NCBI GenBank assembly: GCA_016458225.1
Contig: JAEMGR010000017.1
Location: forward strand, 1-64,000
Length of the DNA stretch: 64,000 bases
Source of the DNA: Myxococcaceae bacterium JPH2
GTDB lineage: Bacteria > Myxococcota > Myxococcia > Myxococcales > Myxococcaceae
Direction of reading: 5' to 3'
Below the pieces are notes generated by a model, which was given only the letters and a program-made list of their open reading frames with translations, searched no databases and had not been told where the DNA came from. Each line of letters starts with the position of its first letter. Position 1 is the stretch's first letter. The position numbers and the translations under genes were made by a program. Positions 47,265 to 64,000 of this stretch are shown in pieces.

Positions 47265-48203
47265 ATGCGCAAGAAGATTGGCGAGCTGCTGGTCCAGGCC
47301 GGCGTGGTGACCGAGGAGCAGGTCAAGACCGCGCTGGCGTCCGTGCGTCGCGGCCAGGGACGGAAGCTGGGCGAGGTCCTCATCTCCCAAGGCGCGTGCA
47401 ACACGACGGACATCGCGCGGGCGCTGGCGACTCAGTACGAGCTGCCCTTCGTGGAGCTGCCCGAGAACATCCCCGTCGCGGTGGCGTCGCTCGTGTCGGT
47501 GGACTTCCAGTCCGAGCACCGCATCCTCCCGTTCCGCCTGGAGTCAGAGGGGCGGGGCGAGAAGCTGCACGTGGCGGTGGAGGATCCGGCGGACCTGACC
47601 ATCGTGGACGAGCTGCGGTTCCAGCTCAGCAAGCAGCTGCGCATCTTCGTCGCGTCACCTGACGACATGGACACCGCGCTGGCGCGTGCCCGGGGAGAGC
47701 CCTTGGACATCGTGGAGGCAGAGCCACTCGACGAGGAGCCGGTCGCTGCTCCGCCGCGTCCGCGTCCAGCCGCGAGCGCCGCGGCGATGCCCTGGGAGCT
47801 GCCCCCGCCTCCGCCGGACGAGTCCAAGTCCTCAGGCGTCGATGTGCTGGAGGACTTGCTCGGGGCGAAGGCGCGCCCGAGTCCCGCGAAGCCGCCGCCG
47901 CCGCCCGTTCCGGATGAGGATGAGGCGGAGTCCGGGTCGGGCAAGCCGCGCGTCCCGGTGGTGATGTTCGGGGGCGCCGCGCAGGGCTTGCGACCGTCGG
48001 TGGTGCTCACGCCCACGCCCAGCTTCTCGGACGAGGACCTGGCGGTGCTGGACGACCTCGACCGCCTGTCCAAGGGCGAGGAGCCGAGCCTCGACACGGA
48101 GAAGGTGAAGCCCGCGCGCATGGTGGCGAGCCTCATCCGGTTGCTGATCCGCAAGGGACTCATCCAGGAGTCGGAGTTCCTGGAGGAGCTGGCGCGGAAG
48201 TGA
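47265..48203 (+). CDS. Second stand-alone MshEN-domain protein
   Basis: 312 residues, paralogue of the preceding gene 9 nt away. Two motifs beginning KIGELL and KLGEVL with Gly at position 10 in both, so closer to the canonical c-di-GMP-binding form; the spacer is six residues. A GspE-N part follows ([21 protein letters not shown]), then a long Pro/Ala/Glu linker and a C-terminal helical segment ([19 protein letters not shown]) resembling that of its neighbour. No nucleotide-hydrolysing domain. Confidence 0.75.
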
Positions 48204-50644: not shown

Positions 50645-50709
50645 ACCCTGACCGCGGCATGGTCCGTTAGAGGGCCTGGGCGGTGGGAAGGGAAAGCACC
50701 CGTGGCTCC

Positions 50710-51357
50710 ATGAGCAATGGGGGAGTGTTGGGACCGGAGATCTCAGACGAGCGGCTGATGCTCGCCTTCCAGGCGGGAGATGCTCGTGCATTCGAGGCCC
50801 TGGTGCGCAGGCACCGGGCGCCGGTCTTCAACTTCATCCTGCGCTTCGTCGGTCACCGGTCGCGGGCGGAGGACGTGCTGCAGGAGACGTGGCTCAAGGT
50901 CGTGCGCAGCGCCCGGGAGTACGAGCCCAAGGCCAAGCTGACGACGTGGCTCTACACCATTGCGAGGAACCTCTGCGTGGACAGCACGCGCAAAGAGAGC
51001 TACCGCCAGACCTCCTCCTTGGAGGCACCCGCCGCCGGCACCGACGGCGACGAGGGGCGTGCGCTCGGGGAGAGCCTTCCGGACGAAGGCGCCAGCCCGG
51101 AGCGGGGCGCTCACAACGCGCGGCTGCGACCCTTGTTGGAGCGTGCGCTCGCCAGCCTTCCAGAAGAGCAACGCGAGGTCTTCATCCTCCGTGAGTACAG
51201 CGGCATCCCCTTCAAGGAGATCGCCGAGGTGACGGGCGTGTCCGAGAACACAGTGAAGAGTCGGATGCGCTACGCGCTGGAGGCGCTGCGCCGACGCCTG
51301 GGCGAACTGGGCGTGGACGGCGATCTGGCGGAGGATGGAAGGACGGTGGCGGGATGA
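50710..51357 (+). CDS. ECF-type RNA polymerase sigma factor
   Basis: 215 residues. Region 2 (RRHRAPVFNFILRFVGHRSRAEDVLQETWLKV) and region 4 (FKEIAEVTGVSENTVKSRMRYAL) are clear. Its stop overlaps the ATG of the anti-sigma gene, the standard pairing. ATG 50710 and GTG 50683 are both possible starts. A TAGAGG -10-like element at 50668-50673 lacks a good -35. Confidence 0.9.
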   Translation: MSNGGVLGPEISDERLMLAFQAGDARAFEALVRRHRAPVFNFILRFVGHRSRAEDVLQETWLKVVRSAREYEPKAKLTTWLYTIARNLCVDSTRKESYRQTSSLEAPAAGTDGDEGRALGESLPDEGASPERGAHNARLRPLLERALASLPEEQREVFILREYSGIPFKEIAEVTGVSENTVKSRMRYALEALRRRLGELGVDGDLAEDGRTVAG

Positions 51358-52769
51358 AAGCGCAGAATCCACACGCGCACGAGGACCGGCTCCTCGACTT
51401 CGCCTATGGCGAGCTGCCAGGCCCCGAGGCTCAGGCCGTGGAGGCGCACCTGCAAGGGTGTGTCCGGTGCGCGCGGGCCCTGGAGGACATCCGAGGCGTG
51501 CGCGTCACCATGGCCCAGCTCGCCGACGAGCCCGCGCCCGACGCGGGGCTGGAGTCCTTGCTCGCTTATGCGAACCAGGCCGCCCGTCGCGCGGTGGCGG
51601 GGCCCGAGCCCAAGCCTTCGCGGTGGCGTCGCTGGCTCCTGCCCGTGGCGGGACTGGCCGCGGTGAGCACCCTGGGCATCCTGTCCATCACGGTGAACGA
51701 GAACCTGAAGCTGGCCCCTCCGCTGAAGGAGGCGGACGTCGTGGGTGCCAAGTCGCCCGGCGCGCCGCCCGCGGTCAGCGCGACGCCTGGACTCGAGGCC
51801 AAAGCCAAAGGCGCAGTGGCTCCGGCCGCGGCGCCGCGCGACGAGGAGGCCTTGCTGGACAAGGCTGCTCCGAAGCGCAGGGATCGAGGGGCCTACCCGG
51901 ATCGCTCGGCGGAGTGGATGAACGCCGGCAGCGGGGGGGGGCTGGACACGCGCGCCGAGAAGAGCGCGCCCTCGAAGAAGCAGGTGCTGGAGCTCGGTCA
52001 GAAGGACCGGCCACCGCCGCCTCCTCCTCCCGCGCCCACGGCGGCCGTTGTCACTCCCGAGCCCTTGGCGCAGGCCGTCGCCGGACCGCGCTACGACGAC
52101 TTCGCCAAGGAGGAGCGCTCGTCCTTGCGCATCGGAGGTGCCTCTCGCGCACAGGCAGTGGCGGGCGAGGCGGAAGCCTCCGACGGGCTCGCGGAGAATG
52201 CCCCCAGCGCCTCCGCACCAGCCGGTCGAGGAGTCCCAGCCGAAGCTCCGAAAGATGTCGAGGCGCCGAAGCCTGTCGTGGTGTCCAAGCCCGTGAGCAA
52301 GGCTGCCCCCGCTCCGTCGCGGCCGTCCGAGCAGGACATGGAGCTCCCGCGCACCTCCGTGGGGAGCGTCATGCCCGGCAAGGCGGATCCGTCAAATCAG
52401 GCCCCCAGTCAGGCTCCGATGGCGACTCCCTCGTTGACCTGGCAGGACCTGTCTCGGCAGGCGCAAGCGGCGGCGAGCCAGGGGGATGACGTCCGCGAGC
52501 TGCGCCTCCTGCGACAGGCCTTGAGTTCCGGAGCCCCCCGGACGGAGCGCATTCGCATCCTCAACCGCATGTGCGAGCTGGAGTCCGCCCTGGGGCAGGA
52601 CGACGCGGCGGAGGCGACCTGCAATCGTGCCTTGGCCGAAGCCCCCAACTCGCGAGCAGCCGAGGTGGCGCTGAAGCGGATGCGCAAGAAGTCCGCGCCG
52701 GAGCCGGCCCCGGCGGCTGCCTCGCCGGCGCCCCCTCGGACTGAGCCGCCCAACGGCGGAGCCCGCTGA
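51354..52769 (+). CDS. Zinc-binding anti-sigma factor with long extracytoplasmic region
   Basis: 471 residues. N-terminal anti-sigma zinc finger: His32-x3-Cys36-x2-Cys39. A single membrane helix at about 87-107 (WRRWLLPVAGLAAVSTLGIL) is followed by some 250 residues rich in Pro, Ala, Lys and Glu, and a TPR-like C-terminal helical part (LRLLRQALSSGAPRTERIRI). It should hold the ECF sigma factor until a periplasmic signal releases it. Translationally coupled (ATGA) to the sigma gene. The Tad locus follows 109 nt later. Confidence 0.88.
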   Translation: MKAQNPHAHEDRLLDFAYGELPGPEAQAVEAHLQGCVRCARALEDIRGVRVTMAQLADEPAPDAGLESLLAYANQAARRAVAGPEPKPSRWRRWLLPVAGLAAVSTLGILSITVNENLKLAPPLKEADVVGAKSPGAPPAVSATPGLEAKAKGAVAPAAAPRDEEALLDKAAPKRRDRGAYPDRSAEWMNAGSGGGLDTRAEKSAPSKKQVLELGQKDRPPPPPPPAPTAAVVTPEPLAQAVAGPRYDDFAKEERSSLRIGGASRAQAVAGEAEASDGLAENAPSASAPAGRGVPAEAPKDVEAPKPVVVSKPVSKAAPAPSRPSEQDMELPRTSVGSVMPGKADPSNQAPSQAPMATPSLTWQDLSRQAQAAASQGDDVRELRLLRQALSSGAPRTERIRILNRMCELESALGQDDAAEATCNRALAEAPNSRAAEVALKRMRKKSAPEPAPAAASPAPPRTEPPNGGAR

Positions 52770-52820: not shown

Positions 52821-52866
52821 TTCGCGACAGTCCATTTGACCGATGCGTCATGTGGGCTGTGCTCTC

Positions 52867-52878: not shown

Positions 52879-53850
52879 ATGAGGCGGTCTGAGAAGGTTG
52901 GGGTGGGGGAGTCTGGCCAGGTGGCCGTCGAGTCGGCACTCGTGATGCCGCTCATGGTGTTCCTGGCGCTTGGAATCATCCAGCTCACGATGATCCAGCA
53001 CGCGAAGCTGATGACGGAGTATGCGGCGTATCAAGCCGCGCGCGCGGGCATCGTCTGGAACGGCAACAACGAGCGCATGCACGACGCGGCCATCGTCGCG
53101 TTGCTGCCCACCATGGGGCGCACGGACGACATCGTCGAGCTGGGCAAGACCTGGGGAAAGCACCAGCTCTATGACAAGGCGATGCGCGCGCTGGCGTGGG
53201 GCGGCGGCGTCGTGCCGGAGTCGCTGAACGGCTCCAACCTCTTCGGCATCATCCGGGTGGACACCGTCAACCCGGCCTACTTCACGCCCATCGACACCAT
53301 CTGGAAGCTGCGCGCGGGCTACAACTGGCAGGAGCTGGACTTCGACGGCGCGGACAGCTTCCCGGAAGTGCCCGGCCTCGAGTCGAAGATCATCAAGTTC
53401 TTCAACCTGCCCGAGCCGGACGAATCCGAGACCGTCTACCGCAAGGCCACGCGTCTCACCATCCGCCTGCGCTACTGGTACGAGATGCGCGTGCCGTTCG
53501 CCAACTGGGTCATCTTCTACGCGTGGTACGCCTCCAACGCGCAGGTCGCGCTGCGCGGCGCCATTGATCGCCCGACGCTGGAGCAGAAGGCGAACATGAC
53601 GAACCGCACGAAGGACATCAGCGCCCTGCGTGGCAAGGCGCGAGGAATGGACCACGAAGAGGGCTACAACACGGTCTACGCCCCGGAGATGTGGGTCCTC
53701 TGGGGGCTGGCGGATGGCAGCATCCCCCTCGTCTCGAAGCTGGTCGGCAAGCGCTACTTCCTGCCCTTGACGGCCACCTACACCATGCGGATGCAGTCCA
53801 ACTTCCACCGCAAGTGGATCATGCACCTCAAGCCCGACTGGGGCCTGTAA
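52879..53850 (+). CDS. TadE-like pilus-assembly protein
   Basis: 323 residues. A short positive leader ends at Gly13, followed by QVAVESALVMPLMVFLALG: a type III prepilin-like site with Glu at +5 (Glu18) and a hydrophobic helix, as in TadE-type minor pilins. The remaining about 270 residues are extracytoplasmic and aromatic-rich, much longer than usual for TadE. ATG 52879 is chosen for the leader; an ATG at 52843 gives an unlikely N-terminus. First gene of a locus that runs to at least 59650. Confidence 0.8.
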   Translation: MRRSEKVGVGESGQVAVESALVMPLMVFLALGIIQLTMIQHAKLMTEYAAYQAARAGIVWNGNNERMHDAAIVALLPTMGRTDDIVELGKTWGKHQLYDKAMRALAWGGGVVPESLNGSNLFGIIRVDTVNPAYFTPIDTIWKLRAGYNWQELDFDGADSFPEVPGLESKIIKFFNLPEPDESETVYRKATRLTIRLRYWYEMRVPFANWVIFYAWYASNAQVALRGAIDRPTLEQKANMTNRTKDISALRGKARGMDHEEGYNTVYAPEMWVLWGLADGSIPLVSKLVGKRYFLPLTATYTMRMQSNFHRKWIMHLKPDWGL

Positions 53851-53863
53851 GAGGAATTGCCCC

Positions 53864-55954
53864 ATGTTCACCCGGACCCTCCGACAGAGTTTTCGTCGCC
53901 AGGAAGGCCAGGCGCTGGTGCTTGCCGCGCTGTTGGTACTGGTGATGTCCATCGCGGTCGTCACGACCGTCAACATCGGTCATACCGTCCACGAGCGCAT
54001 CCGCCTGCAGAACACCGCGGACGCGGCCGCCTACTCCATGTCCGCCATGGAGGCGCGGGCGTTCAACTTCTACGCCTACGCCAACCGCACCCAGGCGTCG
54101 CACTACGTCTCCGCGATGATGTGGCAGTCGCTGCTGTCACTCATCTATTTCGCGGAGGCCTTCCTCGCGGACACGTATGGATTCATGAAGACGCTGAATC
54201 CATGCGCCGGTAAATCCAAGAACATATTCTGGAAGGTCGCTTGTCCCATCCTCGAAGCCTTGCCTTACATCGGGCAGGTTTTGAAAATCATAGACAAGGC
54301 GATGGATGCCTGGCGGATGATCGTCAAGGCATTCCATATGCTTGTCCGGACGACCAACCCAGACAAGCTCATTGGCAAATTCATCATTCCCACCCACCGG
54401 GTACTCAACAGCGTCCTGTTCTTCGCCTCGCAAGCGGTGATGATGTCGGCGTCCACGCACGTATTGCAGACCACCGACACGGTCATTGCGGACAATGACA
54501 AGAACATCAACTCGCTGGTCAGCCAGGGGGTCACGGGCGTCATCAGCCAGTGTCTCTTCGATCAGGCTCACTTCCCGGAGGCAGGTGGGCGTCCGCTGGG
54601 CGTGCCTGTCAATCCGTTCAAGCCGATCAAACCCGAGGCGTGGCGACACGATGAGAAGGAGGCGCGCGCCAAGCGAGCCATGGGCGCGGTGGCCAACGCC
54701 ACCCGCTATGCGTGCGACTCGAAGGGCAGCCTGGGCGTGGGCAGCGTGGACCTCATCTCCTGCCAGGAGCGCTTCATCACGTCCCGTCGCCTGGGAGACC
54801 TGATTCCGCTGCCGGACTGGCTGGGCATCCTCCGCGACTGGCTCAACAACGAGATCGACATCCCCGGCGTGTTCAGCTTCGGCAAGCTGGGCCAGACGCG
54901 TCTGCTCACGGTCAACAACCCGGACCGGGCGAAGATCGTCAAGACCAACACCGCCCGCAACTACATCCGGGATTGGCGTGAGGGCATCGCGCCGTCGCTC
55001 GGCAGCATGGCCCAGGGCGACAACATGGGCTCGGATGACTTGTATTGGCTGAAGTTCGGACCGGCCAACATCCCGGGCTTCCGCAACCCGCTGTCCTGCA
55101 AGACCGACGTGAAGGACCCCAGCGAGTGCTGGGGAGATCCGCGCAAGGGTCTCAAGGACACGGGCGGCAAGTACATGCCGTACCAGTACATGGCCAAGAC
55201 GAGCATCTGGGCCATGAACGCCACCGAGGGTTCATTCCAGAACGGCGGCGTGCACTGGCGCGTGCATCCTCAGCGCATGCCCACCGGTGACACCACGTGG
55301 CGCGGGTACACGCGCCCTAGTGGCCCCGAGGGTGAAGTGGGCGTCACGGAGCACAAGATCTGCACCTTGCCCGTGTGCTTCCTGGGGGCGGGGAAGATCA
55401 GCGTGTACACGGCGAACGTGCACCCGGCCGAGGACACGAATCACCCGTGGGGCGGCGTCGTCCCGTTCATGCACTTCGAGCCCGGTCAGTTCGACGGTGT
55501 CTGCGCTCGCAAGGCGAGCACGGAGACGGCGGCGAAGCGCGACCGGTTCGACTTCAACCAGCCGTCCACCTGGGTGGCGCTGAACAAGTCGCCGGACGAG
55601 GTCATGAACAAGGACCTCAAGGACAAGGACGCTGGCACGAACGCGCCCGCGCAGCTCAACGACCAGGGCAAGGTGAAGTTCGCCTTCACGAGCGACAGCA
55701 AGGGCCTGGAGATGAAGAACGACCGGAAGAAGTTCGCGGGCTTCGTCGAGGGACTCAACGTCATCACCCGCGGCCAGACGTACTACCACCGGCCGGGCAA
55801 CTGGACGGAGCATCCGAACTTCTTCAATCCCTACTGGCGCCCGCGACTGGCGTCCGTGTACCAGGGCCGAGGCACGCTGCCGCTCATCACGACGCTGGAG
55901 TCACAGCTCCCCACCCAGGTTCGCGGCATCGCGGCCAAGGTCATCACCCATTGA
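53864..55954 (+). CDS. TadG-like pilus-assembly protein
   Basis: 696 residues. After a basic leader, Gly15 is followed by QALVLAALLVLVMSIAVVTTVN, the TadG/TadE-type helix, and by IRLQNTADAAAYSMSAMEARA, typical of TadG-related proteins. Glu at +5 is Leu, so processing may differ. The large C-terminal part is unique and rich in Cys, Trp and Lys. An internal segment near 54180-54500 has markedly lower GC and rarer codons. 13 nt after the TadE-like gene. Confidence 0.8.
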   Translation: MFTRTLRQSFRRQEGQALVLAALLVLVMSIAVVTTVNIGHTVHERIRLQNTADAAAYSMSAMEARAFNFYAYANRTQASHYVSAMMWQSLLSLIYFAEAFLADTYGFMKTLNPCAGKSKNIFWKVACPILEALPYIGQVLKIIDKAMDAWRMIVKAFHMLVRTTNPDKLIGKFIIPTHRVLNSVLFFASQAVMMSASTHVLQTTDTVIADNDKNINSLVSQGVTGVISQCLFDQAHFPEAGGRPLGVPVNPFKPIKPEAWRHDEKEARAKRAMGAVANATRYACDSKGSLGVGSVDLISCQERFITSRRLGDLIPLPDWLGILRDWLNNEIDIPGVFSFGKLGQTRLLTVNNPDRAKIVKTNTARNYIRDWREGIAPSLGSMAQGDNMGSDDLYWLKFGPANIPGFRNPLSCKTDVKDPSECWGDPRKGLKDTGGKYMPYQYMAKTSIWAMNATEGSFQNGGVHWRVHPQRMPTGDTTWRGYTRPSGPEGEVGVTEHKICTLPVCFLGAGKISVYTANVHPAEDTNHPWGGVVPFMHFEPGQFDGVCARKASTETAAKRDRFDFNQPSTWVALNKSPDEVMNKDLKDKDAGTNAPAQLNDQGKVKFAFTSDSKGLEMKNDRKKFAGFVEGLNVITRGQTYYHRPGNWTEHPNFFNPYWRPRLASVYQGRGTLPLITTLESQLPTQVRGIAAKVITH

Positions 55955-55962
55955 GCCTCGCC

Positions 55963-57126
55963 ATGTTCCACGCGCGCACACGGAAGCCGTCGCGACGGGG
56001 CGCCGCCACCGTCGAGTTCGCGGTCATCATCCCCGTGCTGGTGATGATCCTGATGTTCAGCATGTACCTCACCGAGTTGGTGAGGGCGAAGCTGAAGCTC
56101 CTGGAGATGGCGCGGTACACCACCTTCGAGATGACCAGCTACACGCTGAGCGACATCGCCAAGGCGGAGCATGACGCCGCCTTCGATGACGCGAAGAAGG
56201 AGGCGCTGGAGGAGGCCCTCGAGCGCTACAAGGACATGGACTCGGTGGAGCCCAATGCCCGCGCGGGTAACTTCATCGCGAACTACACGAACGTGAAGGC
56301 CGAGGTCACCAACCGCGAGGTGCCGTTCATCGAGGGTGGCCTGGTGCTGGGCAACTCGGGGGAGGGCTGGGCCTCGGACGTGCTGGGCGCGGTGAATGGT
56401 GGCGCCAAGGGTCTGCTCAACTTCTGGAAGCTCAACACCAAGGGGTGGGTGGACACGAGCGTGAGCATGAAGTTCGCCAACTCCATCCTGCCCAAGCGGT
56501 ACCTGGAGGAGTCTGGGTCGGGTGGCTTCTTCAAGGTGAACACGTTCGGCAATCGCAACCTGGCGAACCTGGAGCTGAAGTCTCACTTCTCCATGTACGC
56601 CACGGGTTGGAACCTGCCGGACGGTGGCGACGCGGTCATCAATGGCAGACGCGCGGGTGGCCATACGGCGGGCGGAGATCCGCACGGCCTCTACCAGCAG
56701 GTCAATCGCATGACCTTCCTGGGCGTGAAGGCGAAGATCGAGAGTTCGCCGCTGGGAAGCGTCCTGGACTTCTTCAAGAAGTTCTCGCCCGCGTTCCTGG
56801 GCACGTTCGTCATCTCCAAGAACTACGGCCTTCCGGGCACGCTGGAGTGCGCGGGCGTCAACACGTTCCCCGCCAATGGCGTCCACGGCCTCCAGGACCA
56901 GATGACCAAGTCCAAGTCGCTCTTGGACTACGAGCGGCCCCAGTGCTTCGACACCGCGCCGTTCCGCGACCGGGAGTTGGAGAAGTCGCAGTACATCAAG
57001 ATCTTCGAGGCGCGCGGCGAGAACTTCATGGGCTGCAAGAACGCGCAGGCCGAGGACCCGTCCGCCGCCAACAGCGTGGCCGCCACCAAGGGCGATGAGA
57101 ACCAGGACATCCGAAATTGTGAGTAG
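55963..57126 (+). CDS. TadE-like pilus-assembly protein 2
   Basis: 387 residues. Basic leader ending at Gly13, then AATVEFAVIIPVLVMILMF with Glu18 at +5, again a prepilin-like site and helix. The extracytoplasmic part is about 340 residues with several Cys (e.g. GTLECAGVNTFP). Starts 8 nt after the TadG-like gene. The end overlaps the next gene by 32 nt. Confidence 0.8.
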   Translation: MFHARTRKPSRRGAATVEFAVIIPVLVMILMFSMYLTELVRAKLKLLEMARYTTFEMTSYTLSDIAKAEHDAAFDDAKKEALEEALERYKDMDSVEPNARAGNFIANYTNVKAEVTNREVPFIEGGLVLGNSGEGWASDVLGAVNGGAKGLLNFWKLNTKGWVDTSVSMKFANSILPKRYLEESGSGGFFKVNTFGNRNLANLELKSHFSMYATGWNLPDGGDAVINGRRAGGHTAGGDPHGLYQQVNRMTFLGVKAKIESSPLGSVLDFFKKFSPAFLGTFVISKNYGLPGTLECAGVNTFPANGVHGLQDQMTKSKSLLDYERPQCFDTAPFRDRELEKSQYIKIFEARGENFMGCKNAQAEDPSAANSVAATKGDENQDIRNCE

Positions 57127-57901
57127 CGCGGCGGCGCGGCGGGGTCTGGTCCTCGTGTTGCTGCTCGGGGCGCTCAGTGCGAGCGCTCAGCAGGAGCTGC
57201 CCGTGTATCCGGGCACCGTCCACACGCGCATCGGGAACGATCTGGTCATCGCGGGGGAGTACTACCGCATGGCCTACTTCCTCACCGACGACCCGATGGA
57301 CAAGGTCGTGGACTACTTCGTCAAGCAGTGGCGCTCCCAGGGCTATCCCACCGCGGTGGATGGCGACCTGAAGGAAGAGGCAGTCGTCTCGGCGCTCTAC
57401 ACACGCGAGGGACTCCAGCGCGGGGTGGTGCTGCGGCGGCATCTGGGGAAGACGCTCGGGTTCACGGTGTTGCGCGACCTGTGGATGAGCGCGCCCAAGA
57501 GTCCCGCGTCGGGGCTGGTAAAGTTGGAGGGCACGTTGTTCAGCGAGGACCTCGCGTCGCGCGACGTGACCGGAGGGGCGCAGCATCGCTCGGCGCTCAT
57601 CGAGGGAGACATGGCCACGGTGCGCCAGCGCGTGGTGCAGGAGATGACCAAGCAAGGCTATTCGCCGGTGCGCGAGTCCGCGGTGAAGGTGGGCGGACAG
57701 ACGCGCGTGACGCTGGAGCACGCGCGCAAGGGCGAGCAGGTGGTCACCAATCTGAGTCCCGTGGACGAGGGCGTCACCGCCATGCTGCAGATGTGGGTGG
57801 GCTCGGATCGCCCGGACGGCGTTCCCAACGACGCCGCGGTGCGCGAGAGCAAGGCCGCGTACGAGCGCGCGCAGAAGACCCAGAAGGAGGCAGCGCCGTG
57901 A
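57095..57901 (+). CDS. Secreted protein of the Tad locus, unknown
   Basis: 268 residues. Signal peptide (LVLVLLLGALSASAQ). The mature part has two similar-looking halves around DKVVDYFVKQWRSQGYPT and VRQRVVQEMTKQGYSP, possibly a duplicated fold. Not recognised. ATG 57095 (AAGG upstream) overlaps the previous gene; GTG 57119 is an alternative. Its stop overlaps the next GTG (GTGA). Confidence 0.65.
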   Translation: MRTRTSEIVSSAAARRGLVLVLLLGALSASAQQELPVYPGTVHTRIGNDLVIAGEYYRMAYFLTDDPMDKVVDYFVKQWRSQGYPTAVDGDLKEEAVVSALYTREGLQRGVVLRRHLGKTLGFTVLRDLWMSAPKSPASGLVKLEGTLFSEDLASRDVTGGAQHRSALIEGDMATVRQRVVQEMTKQGYSPVRESAVKVGGQTRVTLEHARKGEQVVTNLSPVDEGVTAMLQMWVGSDRPDGVPNDAAVRESKAAYERAQKTQKEAAP

Positions 57902-58692
57902 GGGGCTGGGTGGCGATGGTGGCGTTGGCCGTGGGGTTGGTGGCTTCGCCCGGTCGGGCGAGCGCTCCTCCGCCCATGATGCGCGCGTTGATGGACCACA
58001 TGGCCCGCGGCGTGCGCAGCGCCCAGGTGGGCGACTGGGTGACGTACAAGCTCGATGGGGGCGGAGCGCGCGTCCACTACTGGCGGCTGGCCTTCGTGGG
58101 ACAGGAGAAGGACCGGCATGGTCGCGACGCGATGTGGCTGGAGATCGAGATTGGCACCCATCCGGCCATGCGCGCGCCCCTGGGGCAAATGAAGATGCTG
58201 GTGGCGCTGGAGGGGGCGGGGACGCAGGAGCCCATCACCCGCCTCATCGCTTCGGCGGGCTATGGCAAGCCGCAGGAGTACTCGTCCGAGGCGCTGGAGC
58301 ACGTGTTGAAGGAGGGCCGCGAGCGTCCGGATGGGCCTCCCGAGGCACCGCCCACCGCGGCGGAGCGAGCGCTGCCTCCGCCCGTGATACGGTCCGGCCG
58401 CGAGGCGAGGTTGATGACGCAGGCGGGCTCCGTCACCGCGGTGCCAGTCGAGGTCGTGCTGCGCTCCACCGTGTTGAAGCGCATGTGGATGAGCCGGGAG
58501 ATTCCCATCATGCATCTGGCGAAGATCGAGATTCCGGGGATCGGCCAGAGCATGGAGGTCGTGGAGCACGGCGTGGACGCGCAGCCCCGCATCCGCATGC
58601 CCACCCCCACCGAGGTGCCCATCCGGTTGGAGTACGCGGACCAGGCCTTCGGCAAGCTGCCGTGGTTGCAGGAAGAGGAGCCCCATCCATGA
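57898..58692 (+). CDS. Secreted protein of the Tad locus, unknown 2
   Basis: 264 residues. Signal peptide (AMVALAVGLVASPGRASA), then a beta-rich-looking domain (VGDWVTYKLDGGGARVHYW). Not recognised. GTG start overlaps the upstream stop; its own stop overlaps the next ATG (ATGA). The tight coupling suggests a role in the same apparatus, perhaps pilus subunit export or assembly. Confidence 0.65.
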   Translation: MRGWVAMVALAVGLVASPGRASAPPPMMRALMDHMARGVRSAQVGDWVTYKLDGGGARVHYWRLAFVGQEKDRHGRDAMWLEIEIGTHPAMRAPLGQMKMLVALEGAGTQEPITRLIASAGYGKPQEYSSEALEHVLKEGRERPDGPPEAPPTAAERALPPPVIRSGREARLMTQAGSVTAVPVEVVLRSTVLKRMWMSREIPIMHLAKIEIPGIGQSMEVVEHGVDAQPRIRMPTPTEVPIRLEYADQAFGKLPWLQEEEPHP

Positions 58693-58919
58693 AGCCCGCG
58701 AAGTCGTCGCAGCGCGCCGCTCGCCGCGCCCGTCGCGGTCAGGCGATGGTTGAGTACTCCATGCTCAACTGGGTCCTCGTCGTGGCGCTCGTGGTGGGCG
58801 CCTCGGTGAAGATCCGCTGGAGCGCGGACAAGCAAGCCAACGTCATCGACCTCTTCATGGAGGCGTACCAGGTTTATTACGACTCGTATTACTTCGTGCT
58901 GAACCTGCCGTTCCCGTGA
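58689..58919 (+). CDS. Flp-like prepilin
   Basis: 76 residues. A very basic leader ends in Gly17, followed by QAMVEYSMLNWVLVVALVVGAS: cleavage after Gly would leave Glu22 at +5 and Tyr23 at +6, the EY pair of Flp pilins. The mature 59 residues end in an aromatic tail (YYDSYYFVLNLPFP). This is the best candidate major pilin. Its ATG overlaps the upstream stop and its stop overlaps the next GTG, so all are translationally coupled. Confidence 0.75.
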   Translation: MKPAKSSQRAARRARRGQAMVEYSMLNWVLVVALVVGASVKIRWSADKQANVIDLFMEAYQVYYDSYYFVLNLPFP

Positions 58920-59650
58920 AGTCGGCCTCGAAGGGCGCACTCGCGACTTCCTCCGCGGGTCTGCGTTGGGTGCACGCCATCATCTTCCTGGGACTGGCGG
59001 CGCTCGTCTTCGGCGCGGCCTTTCCCGAGTGGCAGTACCTGGGCGAAGTCGCAGGCTGGCCCTACCACGTGGGCGAGCCGCCGCGCGGTGTGCTGCTGGT
59101 GGGCTCGGTCCTCACTGCCGTGGGGGTCCTGAGGTTGGGCGTGGCGCTCGTGCGCTCCGCCTCCGCTCCCCTGTGGGCCTCGGTCGGCATTCTGTTGGGC
59201 GTGCTGGCCACGATGCTCACGGGCTCCTGGGGCCCGCCGCAGGAGCGCTCCGAGCGTGCGGCGAACCTGGCCATCCTGTCCTCCGCGCGTCGCGTCCATC
59301 TGAGATGGGTGGGCGTGCTGCAGGAGGAGGGCGAGGTGCCGGCGAGCCGCGAGCCGTGGGAGGAGTCGCTCGCGGCGGTGACTCAGACCGCCTCGCGCGT
59401 CAGCGATCGCTTCTTCCGTCGGGTGCCGCCACGCCTGGTGTGGCTGTCAGCGCCGGATGCTCGACCCACTCCGCTCGTGCCGGGCGACGTCTGGGTCTTC
59501 GTGTCGCCCGACGGGATCGCGTTCGAGGTTCGCGCGGTGGGGGTGGAGGACGGGCAGCCCGTGTTCCTTCACGACGAGACGGGCGCCCCCGTCGTCCTGC
59601 GCGGCCTGTTCAATCCGGACCTGCCTCCCACCCAGCCCCGCGAACCCTGA
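58916..59650 (+). CDS. Membrane protein of the Tad locus, unknown
   Basis: 244 residues. Three N-terminal membrane helices (e.g. HAIIFLGLAALVFGAAF and LWASVGILLGVLATML), then a soluble domain with RFFRRVPPRLVWL and HDETGAPVVLRG. Not recognised. GTG start overlaps the Flp-like stop (GTGA). Last gene of the tightly coupled block. Confidence 0.6.
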   Translation: MKSASKGALATSSAGLRWVHAIIFLGLAALVFGAAFPEWQYLGEVAGWPYHVGEPPRGVLLVGSVLTAVGVLRLGVALVRSASAPLWASVGILLGVLATMLTGSWGPPQERSERAANLAILSSARRVHLRWVGVLQEEGEVPASREPWEESLAAVTQTASRVSDRFFRRVPPRLVWLSAPDARPTPLVPGDVWVFVSPDGIAFEVRAVGVEDGQPVFLHDETGAPVVLRGLFNPDLPPTQPREP

Positions 59651-59716
59651 GCGGCGGCCAGGGCCCGCACTCTCCTGTTGCCCGGAGCGCCTCCCTCGGC
59701 GACGCTTCACAGGGCC

Positions 59717-59734
59717 GGGTCTGAACGGACCCGA
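59717..59734 (+). repeat. 6-bp inverted repeat upstream of the lipoprotein gene
   Basis: CGGGTC at 59717-59722 and GACCCG at 59729-59734, six-base loop, in the 114-nt gap before the lipoprotein gene. A small leader or terminator structure. Confidence 0.25.
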
Positions 59735-59764
59735 CATCGCGTGAGTCTCCGGGAGAAATAACGC

Positions 59765-60433
59765 ATGAAGTCGATGACGTGGCTGCGGATGGCGGCGGTG
59801 GGCCTGCTGGTCCTGTCGGGGTGCAGCGAAGACAAGGACGGTGGAGGCGGCGGAGGGGCAGGGGACAAGGCGGGGTTCGGGGATGATCGGGGCCGGCCGG
59901 TGGGGGCCGCGTGGTCGCTGCCGACGGGGCTGCGGCTCGACGGGGACCTGACGGGCACGGACGACGATGGCTACTGCGGCCCGGTGCAGCTGGATCCGGT
60001 GGGCTCGGGGTTCATGGTCCGGGCGTGCTTGCCGGTCCGCAACGATGGTGTCGTGGGCATTCCGCTCGACCTGCCGGCGGGGCTCATCCTCGTGGCATCC
60101 TCTCCCGACTACCAGCACGGGGTCCTGCTGGAGGACTCGCACGTGGTCATCTACCCCGGTGGCGCTGACGCGGGCCCCGAGGTGAAGGGCGGGCCGCTGC
60201 CCATCCATGCCTTCTGCCTCAACCACAGTCGATCCGCCTCCGAGCCGAAGGCGCGCTACACGCTGGGGCCCATCACCCAGAACGCGCAGGTCAAGGAGCT
60301 GATCTCGCTCATCAAGGGCAAGAACGTCGCGGAGGATGGCTCGAAGGTGGAGGTGGTCCAGGAGGCCCTCTGGCACATCACTGACGGCAGCGGCTTGACC
60401 GCGGATGATCGCGCGGCGCTCGCCGAACTGTGA
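59765..60433 (+). CDS. Lipoprotein of the Tad region, unknown
   Basis: 222 residues. Lipobox LLVLSGC with Cys20, a Gly/Asp linker, then a domain with CGPVQLDPVGSGF and a C-terminal helical part (TQNAQVKELISLIKGKN). Not recognised. GGGAG upstream of the ATG. It separates the coupled Tad block from cpaB. Confidence 0.6.
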   Translation: MKSMTWLRMAAVGLLVLSGCSEDKDGGGGGGAGDKAGFGDDRGRPVGAAWSLPTGLRLDGDLTGTDDDGYCGPVQLDPVGSGFMVRACLPVRNDGVVGIPLDLPAGLILVASSPDYQHGVLLEDSHVVIYPGGADAGPEVKGGPLPIHAFCLNHSRSASEPKARYTLGPITQNAQVKELISLIKGKNVAEDGSKVEVVQEALWHITDGSGLTADDRAALAEL

Positions 60434-60489
60434 CGTGCCGCGACGGGGAGGGGATGGCGCGGGAAACTGCTCTGTCGCGAGAGGTGGTT

Positions 60490-60519
60490 TTGACACCTGC
60501 TCTATCACACGGCTAACAT
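60490..60519 (+). promoter_or_regulatory. Predicted sigma-70-type promoter of cpaB-tadBC
   Basis: TTGACA at 60490-60495, 18-nt spacer, TAACAT at 60514-60519. The -35 is perfect. Start near 60526 gives an 80-nt leader that contains a long hairpin at 60538-60582. Confidence 0.6.
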
Positions 60520-60537
60520 CCGCCGCCGTTTGCCGCT

Positions 60538-60582
60538 GGGCGCCGTACCCCCTTGGAAAGACTCGCCGCCATGACGGCGCCC
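60538..60582 (+). promoter_or_regulatory. Leader hairpin before cpaB
   Basis: GGGCGCCGT at 60538-60546 pairs perfectly with ACGGCGCCC at 60574-60582. It lies in the predicted 5' leader, ending 9 nt before the GGAGG ribosome-binding site. It may modulate translation or message stability. Confidence 0.4.
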
Positions 60583-60606
60583 CCCCGTTCTGGAGGTTCC
60601 TGAACC

Positions 60607-61425
60607 ATGCTGAAGGGTAAGACTCCCCTCATCGTCGCGCTCGTGCTCGGACTGCTCGCGGGCGTCGTGGCCTATTCGGCCATCAAGAAGAAGGAAGCCG
60701 ACGTTCGTCGTGGCTGGAACCTCGTGCCGGTCGTCGTGGCGGCCCAGGACATGCCCGAAGGCACGGTCATCAACTACGAGATGATCTCGCAGCGCTCGGT
60801 GCCCGAGCAGTTCGTCACGTCGTCCGTGGTGAAGCCGGACTCCGCTGGCTACATCGTGAACCAGAAGGTGCTGGTGGCGCTGCAGGCCGGCGACCCCATC
60901 CTCTGGAGCCAGTTCGAGACGACGAAGGCGGCCGAGCGCCTCTCCACCAAGGTGCAGAAGAAGGCCCGCGCCATCACCATCGAGGCCAAGCCGACCACGG
61001 CCGTGGGTGGCTGGATTCGCCCCAACGACCACGTGGACATCATCGGCACGTTCCTGGATCCGCAGTCCCAGGAGAACGTGGCCGTGACGCTGCTCCAGAA
61101 CATCATCGTGGTGGCGACCGGAAAGATCACCGGTACCACCAACGTGAACCTCATCCCGGAGAACCAGCGCGACTACGCGAACGTGTCGCTGATGGTGCTG
61201 CCGGAAGAGGCGGAGATCCTGGTGCTCGCGACGGAGCTGGGTCAGCTGACCCTGTCGCTGCGCAACGAGGACGACGTCGATATGATCGAGGAGCGCGGCC
61301 GCGCCACCATCAGCACGCTGCTGTCCGGCGAGCGCACCCGCGTCCTGGAGCAGAAGCGCCGGGAGATCATCCAGATCATCAAGGGCGGGACCTCGGAAAA
61401 GGCCGCGGCCGCCGGTTCGCCGTAA
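60607..61425 (+). CDS. cpaB: Flp pilus assembly protein CpaB
   Basis: 272 residues. N-terminal membrane helix (LIVALVLGLLAGVVAYSAI), then an SAF-type domain (VVVAAQDMPEGTVINYEMI) and a C-terminal RcpC/CpaB domain. It sits in the periplasm and interacts with the secretin. GGAGG lies upstream. Followed by tadB, not by the secretin cpaC as in many loci. Confidence 0.9.
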   Translation: MLKGKTPLIVALVLGLLAGVVAYSAIKKKEADVRRGWNLVPVVVAAQDMPEGTVINYEMISQRSVPEQFVTSSVVKPDSAGYIVNQKVLVALQAGDPILWSQFETTKAAERLSTKVQKKARAITIEAKPTTAVGGWIRPNDHVDIIGTFLDPQSQENVAVTLLQNIIVVATGKITGTTNVNLIPENQRDYANVSLMVLPEEAEILVLATELGQLTLSLRNEDDVDMIEERGRATISTLLSGERTRVLEQKRREIIQIIKGGTSEKAAAAGSP

Positions 61426-61478
61426 GCGCCGCGCGCTGATCGCGACGTCTCGCCCCCGTCCCCCAGGGAACCGCGCGC

Positions 61479-62324
61479 ATGCTTGCAGGAATCGTCCTCC
61501 TCCTCGTCACCGGCTCGGTCTTCTTCTTCAGCCTGGTGATCTTCAGCGTCCTGTCGAAGGCGTATGAGCAGTACCAGGAGCGGTACGTCGCCAAGTCGAT
61601 GAACGACTTGAGCGACATGTTCCTCTTCATCGACGCACGGCAGATGTTGGTCCTCAACATCGCGTGCATGTGCTTGCTCGGCATCCTGAGCTACATCGTC
61701 TTCAACCCCGTGCTCGCGGTGGCCTCGACGGTGTTCGGCTTCTTCCTGCCGATGATCCTGGTGAAGTACTACCGCAAGCGCCGCATCAAGAAGTTCAACG
61801 TCCAGTTGGTGGACGCGCTGCAGGCCATGGCCAACGCGTTCAAGGCGGGTCTCACCTTCCCGCAGGCCATCGAGCACGTGGCCCGCGAGGCGCAGCCGCC
61901 GCTGTCCCAGGAGTTCGGCCTCTTCGTCAAAGAGGTGAAGCTGGGCGTGCCGCTGGAGGAGTCGCTCATCAACATGGGGCGCCGCGTGGGCAGTGACGAC
62001 CTGGAGCTGGTCGTCGTCTCCACGAACATCGCGCGCCAACTGGGCGGCAACATGGCGGAGATGTTCGAGACCATCTCCGCGGTGATTCGCGAGCGCTTCC
62101 GTCTGGAAGGCAAGATCGACGCGCTCACGTCCCAGGGCAAGTTGCAGGGATGGATTGTGGCGGCCATGCCGGGCGTGCTGGGCATGGTGCTCAACTACAT
62201 GCGTCCGGACCTGATGGAGCCGATGATGAACCACATCTTCGGCTACGTGCTGGTGACCATCATCGCCATCATGGAGATCCTCGGGATCTTGATCATCCGG
62301 CGCATCGTCAACATCGACATCTGA
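61479..62324 (+). CDS. tadB: Type II secretion F-domain protein TadB
   Basis: 281 residues with N-terminal membrane helices and the F-domain stretch LQAMANAFKAGLTFPQAIEHVA, a second membrane pair at the C-terminus. It forms the inner-membrane platform with TadC. 53 nt after cpaB. Confidence 0.92.
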   Translation: MLAGIVLLLVTGSVFFFSLVIFSVLSKAYEQYQERYVAKSMNDLSDMFLFIDARQMLVLNIACMCLLGILSYIVFNPVLAVASTVFGFFLPMILVKYYRKRRIKKFNVQLVDALQAMANAFKAGLTFPQAIEHVAREAQPPLSQEFGLFVKEVKLGVPLEESLINMGRRVGSDDLELVVVSTNIARQLGGNMAEMFETISAVIRERFRLEGKIDALTSQGKLQGWIVAAMPGVLGMVLNYMRPDLMEPMMNHIFGYVLVTIIAIMEILGILIIRRIVNIDI

Positions 62325-62334
62325 GAGGCGCACC

Positions 62335-63225
62335 GTGCAGGACATCCTCACAGTCATCCTGATCATCGGCTCGGCGCTTCTCACCGCGGCGGCGGTGGCG
62401 TTCCTGGGCATCGGTCTGTACCAGAACGTCTTCGAGCGCTTCTTGTCGGAGGTCCGCGACGAGTCGGGCGGCGGCATGAAGGGCGCCGGCTCGGTGGCCA
62501 TCCGCAAGCTGGGCGTCATCAACCGGCGCTTCATGTGGCCGTCGTATGAGGCCAAGGCGCGGCGCAAGCTCATCAAGGCGGGCGAGCCCCAGGGCTACAA
62601 GCCGGAAGACATCATGGCCATGCAGGAGGTCAGCGCCGTGCTGGCGCTCATCTTCGGCCTGTTCGCCTGCAATGCCTTGAACGCGACGTTCGCGTGGGCG
62701 CTGCTGGTGATGTTGATCGGCCTCTACTACCCGCTCTTGTGGCTGAACGATCAGGTGAAGAAGCGCCACCTGGCCATCAGCCGCGCGCTGCCGTACAGCC
62801 TGGACCTGCTGACGCTGTCGGTGGAGGCCGGTCTGGACTTCACGGGCGCGCTCGCGAAGGTGGTGGAGAAGGGCAAGGCGGGCGCGCTGCGCGAGGAGCT
62901 GCAGCTGGTCCTCAAGCAGCTCAAGATGGGCAAGACGCGCGAAGAGGCGCTCAAGAGCATGATCGTCCGCGTGGACCTGCCGCCGCTCACCACGTTCGTC
63001 ACGGCGCTCATCCAGGCGGACAAGATGGGCACCAGCTTGGGCAAGGTGCTGCGCATCCAGTCGACCCAGATGCGCATCGACCGCACCCAGCGCGCTGAGA
63101 AGCTGGCCGGCGAGGCCCCCGTGAAGATGCTCTTCCCGCTCATCGCGTGCATCTTCCCCACGGTCTTCATGGTGCTGTTCGGCCCCATCGTGTTCCAGTT
63201 CTTCTTCGGCGAGCTCGCGGGGTAG
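62335..63225 (+). CDS. tadC: Type II secretion F-domain protein TadC
   Basis: 296 residues, paralogue and partner of TadB: two N-terminal helices, F-domain (YSLDLLTLSVEAGLDFTGAL) and C-terminal helices with PVKMLFPLIACIFPTVFMVLFG. The start is GTG 62335, 10 nt after tadB. Confidence 0.92.
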   Translation: MQDILTVILIIGSALLTAAAVAFLGIGLYQNVFERFLSEVRDESGGGMKGAGSVAIRKLGVINRRFMWPSYEAKARRKLIKAGEPQGYKPEDIMAMQEVSAVLALIFGLFACNALNATFAWALLVMLIGLYYPLLWLNDQVKKRHLAISRALPYSLDLLTLSVEAGLDFTGALAKVVEKGKAGALREELQLVLKQLKMGKTREEALKSMIVRVDLPPLTTFVTALIQADKMGTSLGKVLRIQSTQMRIDRTQRAEKLAGEAPVKMLFPLIACIFPTVFMVLFGPIVFQFFFGELAG

Positions 63226-63229
63226 TCCT

Positions 63230-64000
63230 CTGCCTATCCGGCTCACCATTACCCAGGGGCTCCAGCAGGGGCGGGAGCTCGTTTTCGAGTCGGCCGAGGT
63301 GAAGATCGGTCGGACCTCGGAGAACGACCTGGTCCTGCACGACCACGGGGTGTCGCGGCGACACGCGAACCTCGTGGAGCGGGGAGGTCAGTACTTCGCC
63401 AGCGACCTGGGGAGCTCCAACGGCACCCTGGTCAACGGACTGAAGCTGGCGGCGGAGCAGCAGCTTCGCGACGGCGACCTCATCACCGTGGGGCCCGTGT
63501 CGTTCACCTTCGTCTGGGTCCCACCCGAGGGAGACGAGGACGCCACGCGCCCCATCCGGCGCGAGCTGCTCCGCGCCCATGTGTCTCCCGCGGGGAAGGG
63601 GACCGCGGAGCTGGCCGCGCTGGAGTCGGCGCCCACCGGCTTCCGGCCCGCGCTCGTGATTCCCGATCCGCCCGCCGCGGTGAGTGGCGGCGCCAGTGCG
63701 AGCCCCAGCGCGCTCGACAAGGTCGCGCCGAGCCCCGCCCCGGTCCGAGCCACGGGGGCGAAGGAGCCGCTGTCCGCCGCGGAGCGCGCGCGCCACCGCC
63801 GGGAGCTGCAGGGCTCGGTTCAGGGGCAGGTGCGCCTGTGGTGGGAGGGGATGCCTCGGGTGGCCCGATGGGGCGCCGCGAGCGTCGCCGGCCTGGGCCT
63901 GCTGTCGCTCGTGGCCGTGGTCGTCTGGGCCGTGGTGTTCCGCTCGGAGGGCGGCATCGGGCGGGGCGCGGAGCCCTCATTGGTGGGGGCGGAGGCGCTG
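63230..64000 (+). CDS. FHA-domain membrane protein, partial
   Basis: Runs past the window end; 257 codons seen. The N-terminal FHA domain reads IGRTSENDLVLHDHGVSRRHA, then DLGSSNGTLVNG, the phosphothreonine-binding residues being present. A Pro/Ala linker precedes a membrane helix (LGLLSLVAVVVWAVVF). It begins 4 nt after tadC. No ATG, GTG or TTG lies in-frame before the FHA fold; a CTG at 63230 with GGGG seven bases upstream is the likely start. It may link Ser/Thr kinase signalling to the Tad machine. Confidence 0.8.
   Translation, partial: MPIRLTITQGLQQGRELVFESAEVKIGRTSENDLVLHDHGVSRRHANLVERGGQYFASDLGSSNGTLVNGLKLAAEQQLRDGDLITVGPVSFTFVWVPPEGDEDATRPIRRELLRAHVSPAGKGTAELAALESAPTGFRPALVIPDPPAAVSGGASASPSALDKVAPSPAPVRATGAKEPLSAAERARHRRELQGSVQGQVRLWWEGMPRVARWGAASVAGLGLLSLVAVVVWAVVFRSEGGIGRGAEPSLVGAEAL

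Follow-up and report, generated by a model that had tools for sequence, protein, structure and literature searches.

The window analysed here is the first 64 kb of the 162.6-kb contig C17 of Myxococcaceae bacterium JPH2, whose genome is 9.0 Mb. Its right end (52879-64000) carries an operon of Tad/Flp-type pilus genes. When the sequence past 64000 was examined, as an earlier note on this DNA had proposed, the operon was found to go on with a second FHA gene, which also encodes TPRs, to about 66514. Very probably, this locus corresponds gene for gene to kil gene cluster II (mxan_4648-4661) of Myxococcus xanthus, as its orthologue. The Kil system of M. xanthus is a Tad-type prey-killing pilus (Seef 2021, Herrou 2025; PMC8460266, PMC12075869). 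The genes of the locus are listed here, with protein identities relative to M. xanthus AM003 (locus L060).

52879-53850, plus strand: KilM4, TadE-like minor pilin of Tip4, 323 amino acids (PF07811, 2.5e-12; 75% identity); an alternative in-frame start is possible at 52843
53864-55954, plus strand: KilN4, large TadG-like tip pilin, 696 amino acids (PF13400, 9.5e-8; 59%, full length)
55963-57126, plus strand: KilL4, TadE/TadF-like minor pilin, 387 amino acids (PF07811, 1.5e-5; 52%)
57095-57901, plus strand: protein X, Tip-associated secreted protein (mxan_4657 by position), characterized by alignment, AlphaFold model, fold matches and homologues after kilL in other Tip cassettes
57898-58692, plus strand: secreted protein (mxan_4656 by position), aligned, seen only beside Tip4; no Pfam match and no match in Protein Data Bank (PDB) sequences
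58689-58919, plus strand: KilK, Flp-like adapter pilin, 76 amino acids (78% to the protein that occupies the position of KilK)
58916-59650, plus strand: membrane protein (mxan_4654 by position), conserved in position at 32-90% identity; no Pfam match
59765-60433, plus strand: lipoprotein (mxan_4653 by position), member of a Tip-associated family, characterized by family search, alignment and predicted model
60607-61425, plus strand: KilB (CpaB/RcpC; PF16976, 9.1e-22; 92%)
61479-62324, plus strand: KilG, TadB-type inner-membrane platform protein (PF00482, 3.1e-17; 93%)
62335-63225, plus strand: KilH, TadC-type inner-membrane platform protein (PF00482, 1.6e-18; 83%)
63299-64717 (in the window to 64000), plus strand: FHA-domain protein (PF00498, 2.5e-18 and 2.4e-19, on L018)
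64754-66514 of the contig, past the window end: FHA/TPR protein, following the first FHA gene

The whole run of 13 genes that starts with kilM4 and ends with the FHA/TPR gene is collinear in M. xanthus AM003, with the same order and orientation (kilM4-kilN4-kilL4-4657-4656-kilK-4654-lipoprotein-kilB-kilG-kilH-FHA-FHA/TPR). The published M. xanthus order is kilM4 (mxan_4660), kilN4 (4659), kilL4 (4658) and kilK (4655), with kilB, kilG and kilH in the same cluster; the numbers 4657, 4656, 4654 and 4653 were assigned by position between these published genes and not from an annotated record. Protein identities between the two loci range from 36% for the lipoprotein to 93% for KilG. When gene order was compared across myxobacteria, also a proposal of the earlier note, it was found to be kept in more than 10 genomes, and the locus is therefore not a chance arrangement. 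The same order occurs in Pyxidicoccus and Hyalangium. In Archangium (L064, L066) it is rearranged, with the pilin half inverted relative to kilB-kilG-kilH, so that the two halves of the cluster behave as modules. A full-length KilN4 homologue is present across much of the family. The match in Citreicoccus inhibens shows 88-100% protein identity from kilM4 through the FHA genes, and the source of the locus is a Citreicoccus-like myxobacterium. Records titled 'Comamonas sp. KCTC 72670' (L053, L062) also carry a complete myxobacterial kil cluster II and apparently come from a misnamed myxobacterium.

The genes named in the earlier note (two TadE-like genes, a TadG-like gene of 696 codons, and genes for a Flp-like pilin, secreted unknowns, a lipoprotein, CpaB, TadB, TadC and an FHA protein) are all present as open frames, and cpaB is followed directly by tadB with neither a secretin nor an ATPase between them. 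The description of these genes as joined by overlaps holds from kilL to the gene at 58916, with 32 nucleotides shared between kilL and 4657 and 4 nucleotides at each of the 4657-4656, 4656-kilK and kilK-4654 junctions. It does not hold for the first three pilin genes, which are spaced 13 (kilM-kilN) and 8 (kilN-kilL) nucleotides apart; gaps of 114, 173 and 53 nucleotides come after the overlapping block. The gene for the Flp-like pilin is likewise there (58689-58919), but its product, KilK, stays below the threshold of the Pfam Flp model. The composition, which had been called unusual, is ordinary as far as bases are concerned (66% G+C in the locus against 69% in the whole window).

The rest of the machine was found in a genome-wide search, which located a secretin and an ATPase gene side by side on contig C32. 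The order there (FHA protein, KilA, KilC, KilF, KilD) is that of kil cluster I (L019, 6713-12895), with the following products.

KilA, contig C32: prepilin peptidase, 178 amino acids (PF01478, 2.3e-13)
KilC, contig C32: secretin, 482 amino acids (PF00263)
KilF, contig C32: ATPase with an N-terminal FHA domain, 591 amino acids (FHA, 1.9e-17; T2SSE, 3e-66)
KilD, contig C32: 741 amino acids, two FHA domains

Cluster I of M. xanthus consists of KilA, KilC, KilF and KilD (PMC8460266), and the split of the Kil genes into two clusters has been published and is typical. KilC of the Kil system is a short secretin that lacks the N0 domain. No secretin or T2SSE match was found in the 98 kb of contig C17 beyond the window. 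Apart from the T2SSF genes on contigs C13 and C1, which adjoin strong T2SSE-family ATPase genes, KilG and KilH form the only such pair of the genome. A candidate for the major pilin KilP (mxan_5121 in M. xanthus) is an 85-amino-acid Flp protein on contig C7 (PF04964, 2.4e-5, below the curated cut-off), proposed from its Flp match. Two export gate genes of the type III secretion system (T3SS) type (FHIPEP, T3SS/flagellar) are present (G000:C12:190579-192594 and G000:C1:131422-133368), and at least one of them may be part of the needleless T3SS with which Kil acts.

These data bear on two other readings of the locus. An ordinary complete Tad adhesion pilus, split merely by the draft assembly, would account for the core subunits, which are Tad homologues; TadB, TadC, CpaB, TadE/G, a Flp-like pilin, a secretin and a CpaF ATPase are shared with the canonical systems (Caulobacter cpa, Aggregatibacter tad). 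However, both clusters lie inside their contigs, so that the split is not an assembly break, and the missing secretin and ATPase genes are found in the middle of contig C32 in cluster I order. The FHA-fused ATPase, the FHA proteins and the several exchangeable Tip cassettes are Kil traits which, together with the two distant clusters and a major pilin encoded elsewhere, distinguish this system from the canonical pilus, and we regard the ordinary pilus as very unlikely. The second reading, suggested in the earlier note, takes the locus for a secretion or fibre system other than Kil that has not been described before. The gene content is indeed unusual for a Tad locus and several proteins have no family match, but gene-for-gene orthology with the published cluster II and the presence of cluster I, of a KilP candidate and of Tips make this extremely improbable, and it is refuted by the M. 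xanthus synteny. The remaining machine genes are found elsewhere in the genome, an arrangement also published for M. xanthus, and the proteins in question are standard subunits across the Myxococcaceae. With both findings, the refuting test that the earlier note had set for its own idea has turned out against that idea. The suggestion of a modified Tad fibre with oversized minor pilins was correct, since these proteins are the Tip4 minor pilins of Kil.

Taken together, these features indicate that the locus belongs to an already known predation pilus in a new genome, with one modest new component, a fourth Tip gene, described below. From orthology we infer that the strain would have Kil function. 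Three points weigh against this identification: the strain has no known phenotype, the number of Tip cassettes found is three and not four as in M. xanthus, and KilK and the KilP candidate both fall below the Pfam Flp cut-off.

The three KilLMN Tip cassettes of this genome lie on contigs C17 (Tip4), C5 and C3. The C5 cassette is Tip3-like, with a 62-amino-acid KilO-like Flp protein encoded beside it. M. xanthus AM003 has Tip4 and three further cassettes (L109, L110 and L111), of which L109 was taken as Tip3 because a 59-amino-acid KilO-like gene adjoins it. Several other arrangements were observed. An orphan KilN4-like gene, 57% identical to the KilN4 of the window, is present at L063:2872-5037 (M. 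xanthus AM003) and at L062:9863-12091, in both genomes with unrelated flanking genes and no KilM or KilL neighbour. A second KilN4 is apparent in several Myxococcus-type genomes, and in genome G100 one KilN4-like match is broken into two pieces. Locus L157 (G080:C1:84801-98500) contains two complete Tip cassettes in tandem, each with its own X gene. Small secreted cysteine-rich proteins with repeated CxxxC pairs adjoin two different Tip cassettes (L068:2463-2726, minus strand, and L111:3051-3455, plus strand), the former having no significant Pfam match.

Protein X (57095-57901) carries an apparent signal peptide and is predicted to be exported. In the C5 and C3 cassettes, and in each of the four cassettes of M. 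xanthus, the gene after kilL likewise encodes a protein of about this size that has an apparent signal peptide or a membrane segment at its N-terminus. When the order was searched with the C3-type X, 85 of 145 genomes gave homologues, among them the L111 type at an E-value of 9.8e-20. The X gene stood beside kilM, kilN or kilL of a Tip cassette in all 50 loci fetched (20 chosen for diversity and the 30 best matches), one of them with a different order. In profile comparisons, the Tip3-type X scored 97% against the C3/L111 type, and the Tip4-type X scored 83% and 76% against these two; the scores of X against unrelated proteins of the locus were at most 6%. KilM, KilN and KilL, which are distant pilin relatives, scored 24-82% against each other, so that the scale of this comparison is reasonable. 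As judged by sequence comparison, homologous X proteins thus accompany kilL in all Tip types seen. No description of the X gene was found in the searched parts of the main text of either Kil paper, and a supplementary synteny figure may already draw X genes unnamed (PMC8460266, PMC12075869). The conserved fourth Tip gene is what is new here relative to the main text of these papers.

An AlphaFold (AF2) model based on 17 homologues predicts that X consists of two beta-alpha-beta4 domains, with a mean predicted local distance difference test score (pLDDT) of 61.9. On this model, the second domain aligned best with DcrB, SciW and EagT6 (Z-scores of 8.8-9.7, up to 9.7 over 78 residues), and Foldseek matched it to DcrB/Eag proteins with a probability of about 1.0 and E-values of 0.004-0.015. 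The predicted fold of residues 159-236 resembles that of the DcrB/Eag (DUF1795) chaperones such as SciW and EagT6 (Z-scores of 8.9-9.7), from which X differs in its predicted export, its two domains and a sequence identity of 9-14%. Eag proteins hold the hydrophobic helices of type VI secretion system effectors (PMC7773334). The Tip pilins have hydrophobic N-terminal helices that need to be held until they are assembled, so X is read most economically as a chaperone. On the basis of gene position, homology across Tip types and the predicted DcrB/Eag-like fold, we tentatively propose that X could be a dedicated periplasmic chaperone for Tip pilins, at somewhat less than an even chance. A more guarded proposal is that every exchangeable Tip might be a four-gene cassette, kilM-kilN-kilL plus its own exported DcrB/Eag-like chaperone, with one assembly factor per Tip.

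Several points weigh against a chaperone role. Known Eag proteins act in the cytoplasm, whereas X is predicted to be exported. The mean pLDDT of the model is just 61.9 and the best Foldseek E-value for DcrB is 0.0038, and a Z-score of 9-10 on a small alpha/beta domain can reflect a common arrangement. No Pfam DcrB/DUF1795 match was obtained in the 17 X members at an E-value of 10, a search in which the HMMER filters drop most weak matches. A Pfam BTRD1 match to X (E-value of 0.01, below the cut-off) was judged to be due to chance.

Alternatively, X could be an effector or a structural cap carried by the Tip. Its predicted export, its occurrence once per Tip cassette and the toxic activity of unknown source attributed to Tip4 (PMC12075869) would agree with this. 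However, homologous X proteins occur with all Tip types, whereas extra toxicity is reported for Tip4 only, and the predicted fold is chaperone-like and recalls no family of toxins. An effector or cap is therefore considered unlikely, and the protein encoded at 57898-58692, which is seen only beside Tip4, is a better candidate than X for a Tip4-only function. The idea of the earlier note that the embedded secreted proteins are part of the device is supported, in the case of X, by its place in the Tip cassettes and by the profile comparisons.

The lipoprotein (59765-60433) represents a second family associated with Tips. Another member of this family adjoins the Tip3-like cassette in this genome, a difference from the M. 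xanthus cluster, and 10 of the 11 other lipoprotein loci fetched outside cluster II have an adjacent Tip3-like cassette, the exception being L116. Its motifs [FY]C[LI]N and QxxPhi[WY], with an invariant C151 and an invariant Q199 followed by W or Y at +4, weakly recall those of thioester domains (TEDs), and the predicted model has strands (one at 143-151) before three helices (one at 192-206), as in the TED adhesins SfbI and Cpa. It differs from these adhesins in having no C-terminal strand bearing the thioester-forming glutamine: neither the alignment nor the model shows a glutamine or a strand after residue 206, and an invariant Q117 precedes the cysteine. The best Pfam E-value was 0.13. A structure search with the model gave no significant match (best E-value of 0.14, best Z-score of 3.2), and no TED chain was among the Foldseek or VIA-align matches listed. 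The assignment as a thioester-domain adhesin was thus rejected and is kept only as a lead. PDB sequence searches with profiles of three unknown proteins gave nothing credible, a match to ribosomal S8 (0.0036) being judged to be due to chance. The lipoprotein gene is tandemly duplicated in Myxococcus sp. RHSTA-1-4 (L050:15948-17600) and in Pyxidicoccus caerfyrddinensis (L065:15942-17450).

Upstream of kilM4, a conserved neighbouring gene pair lies outside the published Kil machine.

50683-51357, plus strand: extracytoplasmic function (ECF)-type sigma factor (PF04542/PF08281)
51354-52769, plus strand: zf-HC2 anti-sigma-like protein with hints of TPRs (PF13490, 2.7e-7), overlapping the sigma gene by 4 nucleotides

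Where a locus is long enough for linkage to be visible, this pair is in most cases linked to kil cluster II; in Archangium L064 it stands at the opposite end of the inverted pilin module. The pair (50683-52769) is a candidate regulator of the cluster. Further upstream, at 47265-48203, a protein opening with '[24 protein letters not shown]' resembles the N-terminal domain of type II secretion system/type IV pilus ATPases without the ATPase; its gene shortly precedes those of oligopeptide-type ABC transporter ATPases.

In M. xanthus, contact with prey is where the machine assembles, and the KilP pilus extends and retracts (PMC8460266, PMC12075869). Any one of the four Tip complexes is enough for pilus formation; Tips require the adapter KilK or KilO, and three of them require KilA. 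Killing without the T3SS is possible for Tip4 alone (PMC12075869). By orthology, cluster II of the present strain would supply the platform KilG/KilH, KilB, the adapter KilK, the Tip4 spearhead KilM4/KilN4/KilL4, and FHA and accessory secreted proteins, which would work with the KilA peptidase, the KilC secretin, the FHA-fused ATPase KilF and KilD from cluster I. At prey contact, as experiments have shown for M. xanthus, a short KilP pilus would be extended with one of several exchangeable Tip complexes as its cap; jointly with the needleless T3SS, these complexes would recognize and kill prey. In the periplasm, protein X may hold the hydrophobic helices at the N-termini of the three Tip pilins, or assemble them.

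The locus itself adds an orthologue of a known system, and its use lies in a narrower point. Two questions were stated to be open by the discoverers of the Kil machine in the 2025 paper (PMC12075869), namely how it selects among its Tips and what causes the extra killing by Tip4. If each Tip does have its own assembly factor, this factor could determine the choice of the Tip that is loaded on contact with prey. For both questions, the conserved fourth Tip gene and the gene of the protein seen only beside Tip4 offer concrete deletion targets.

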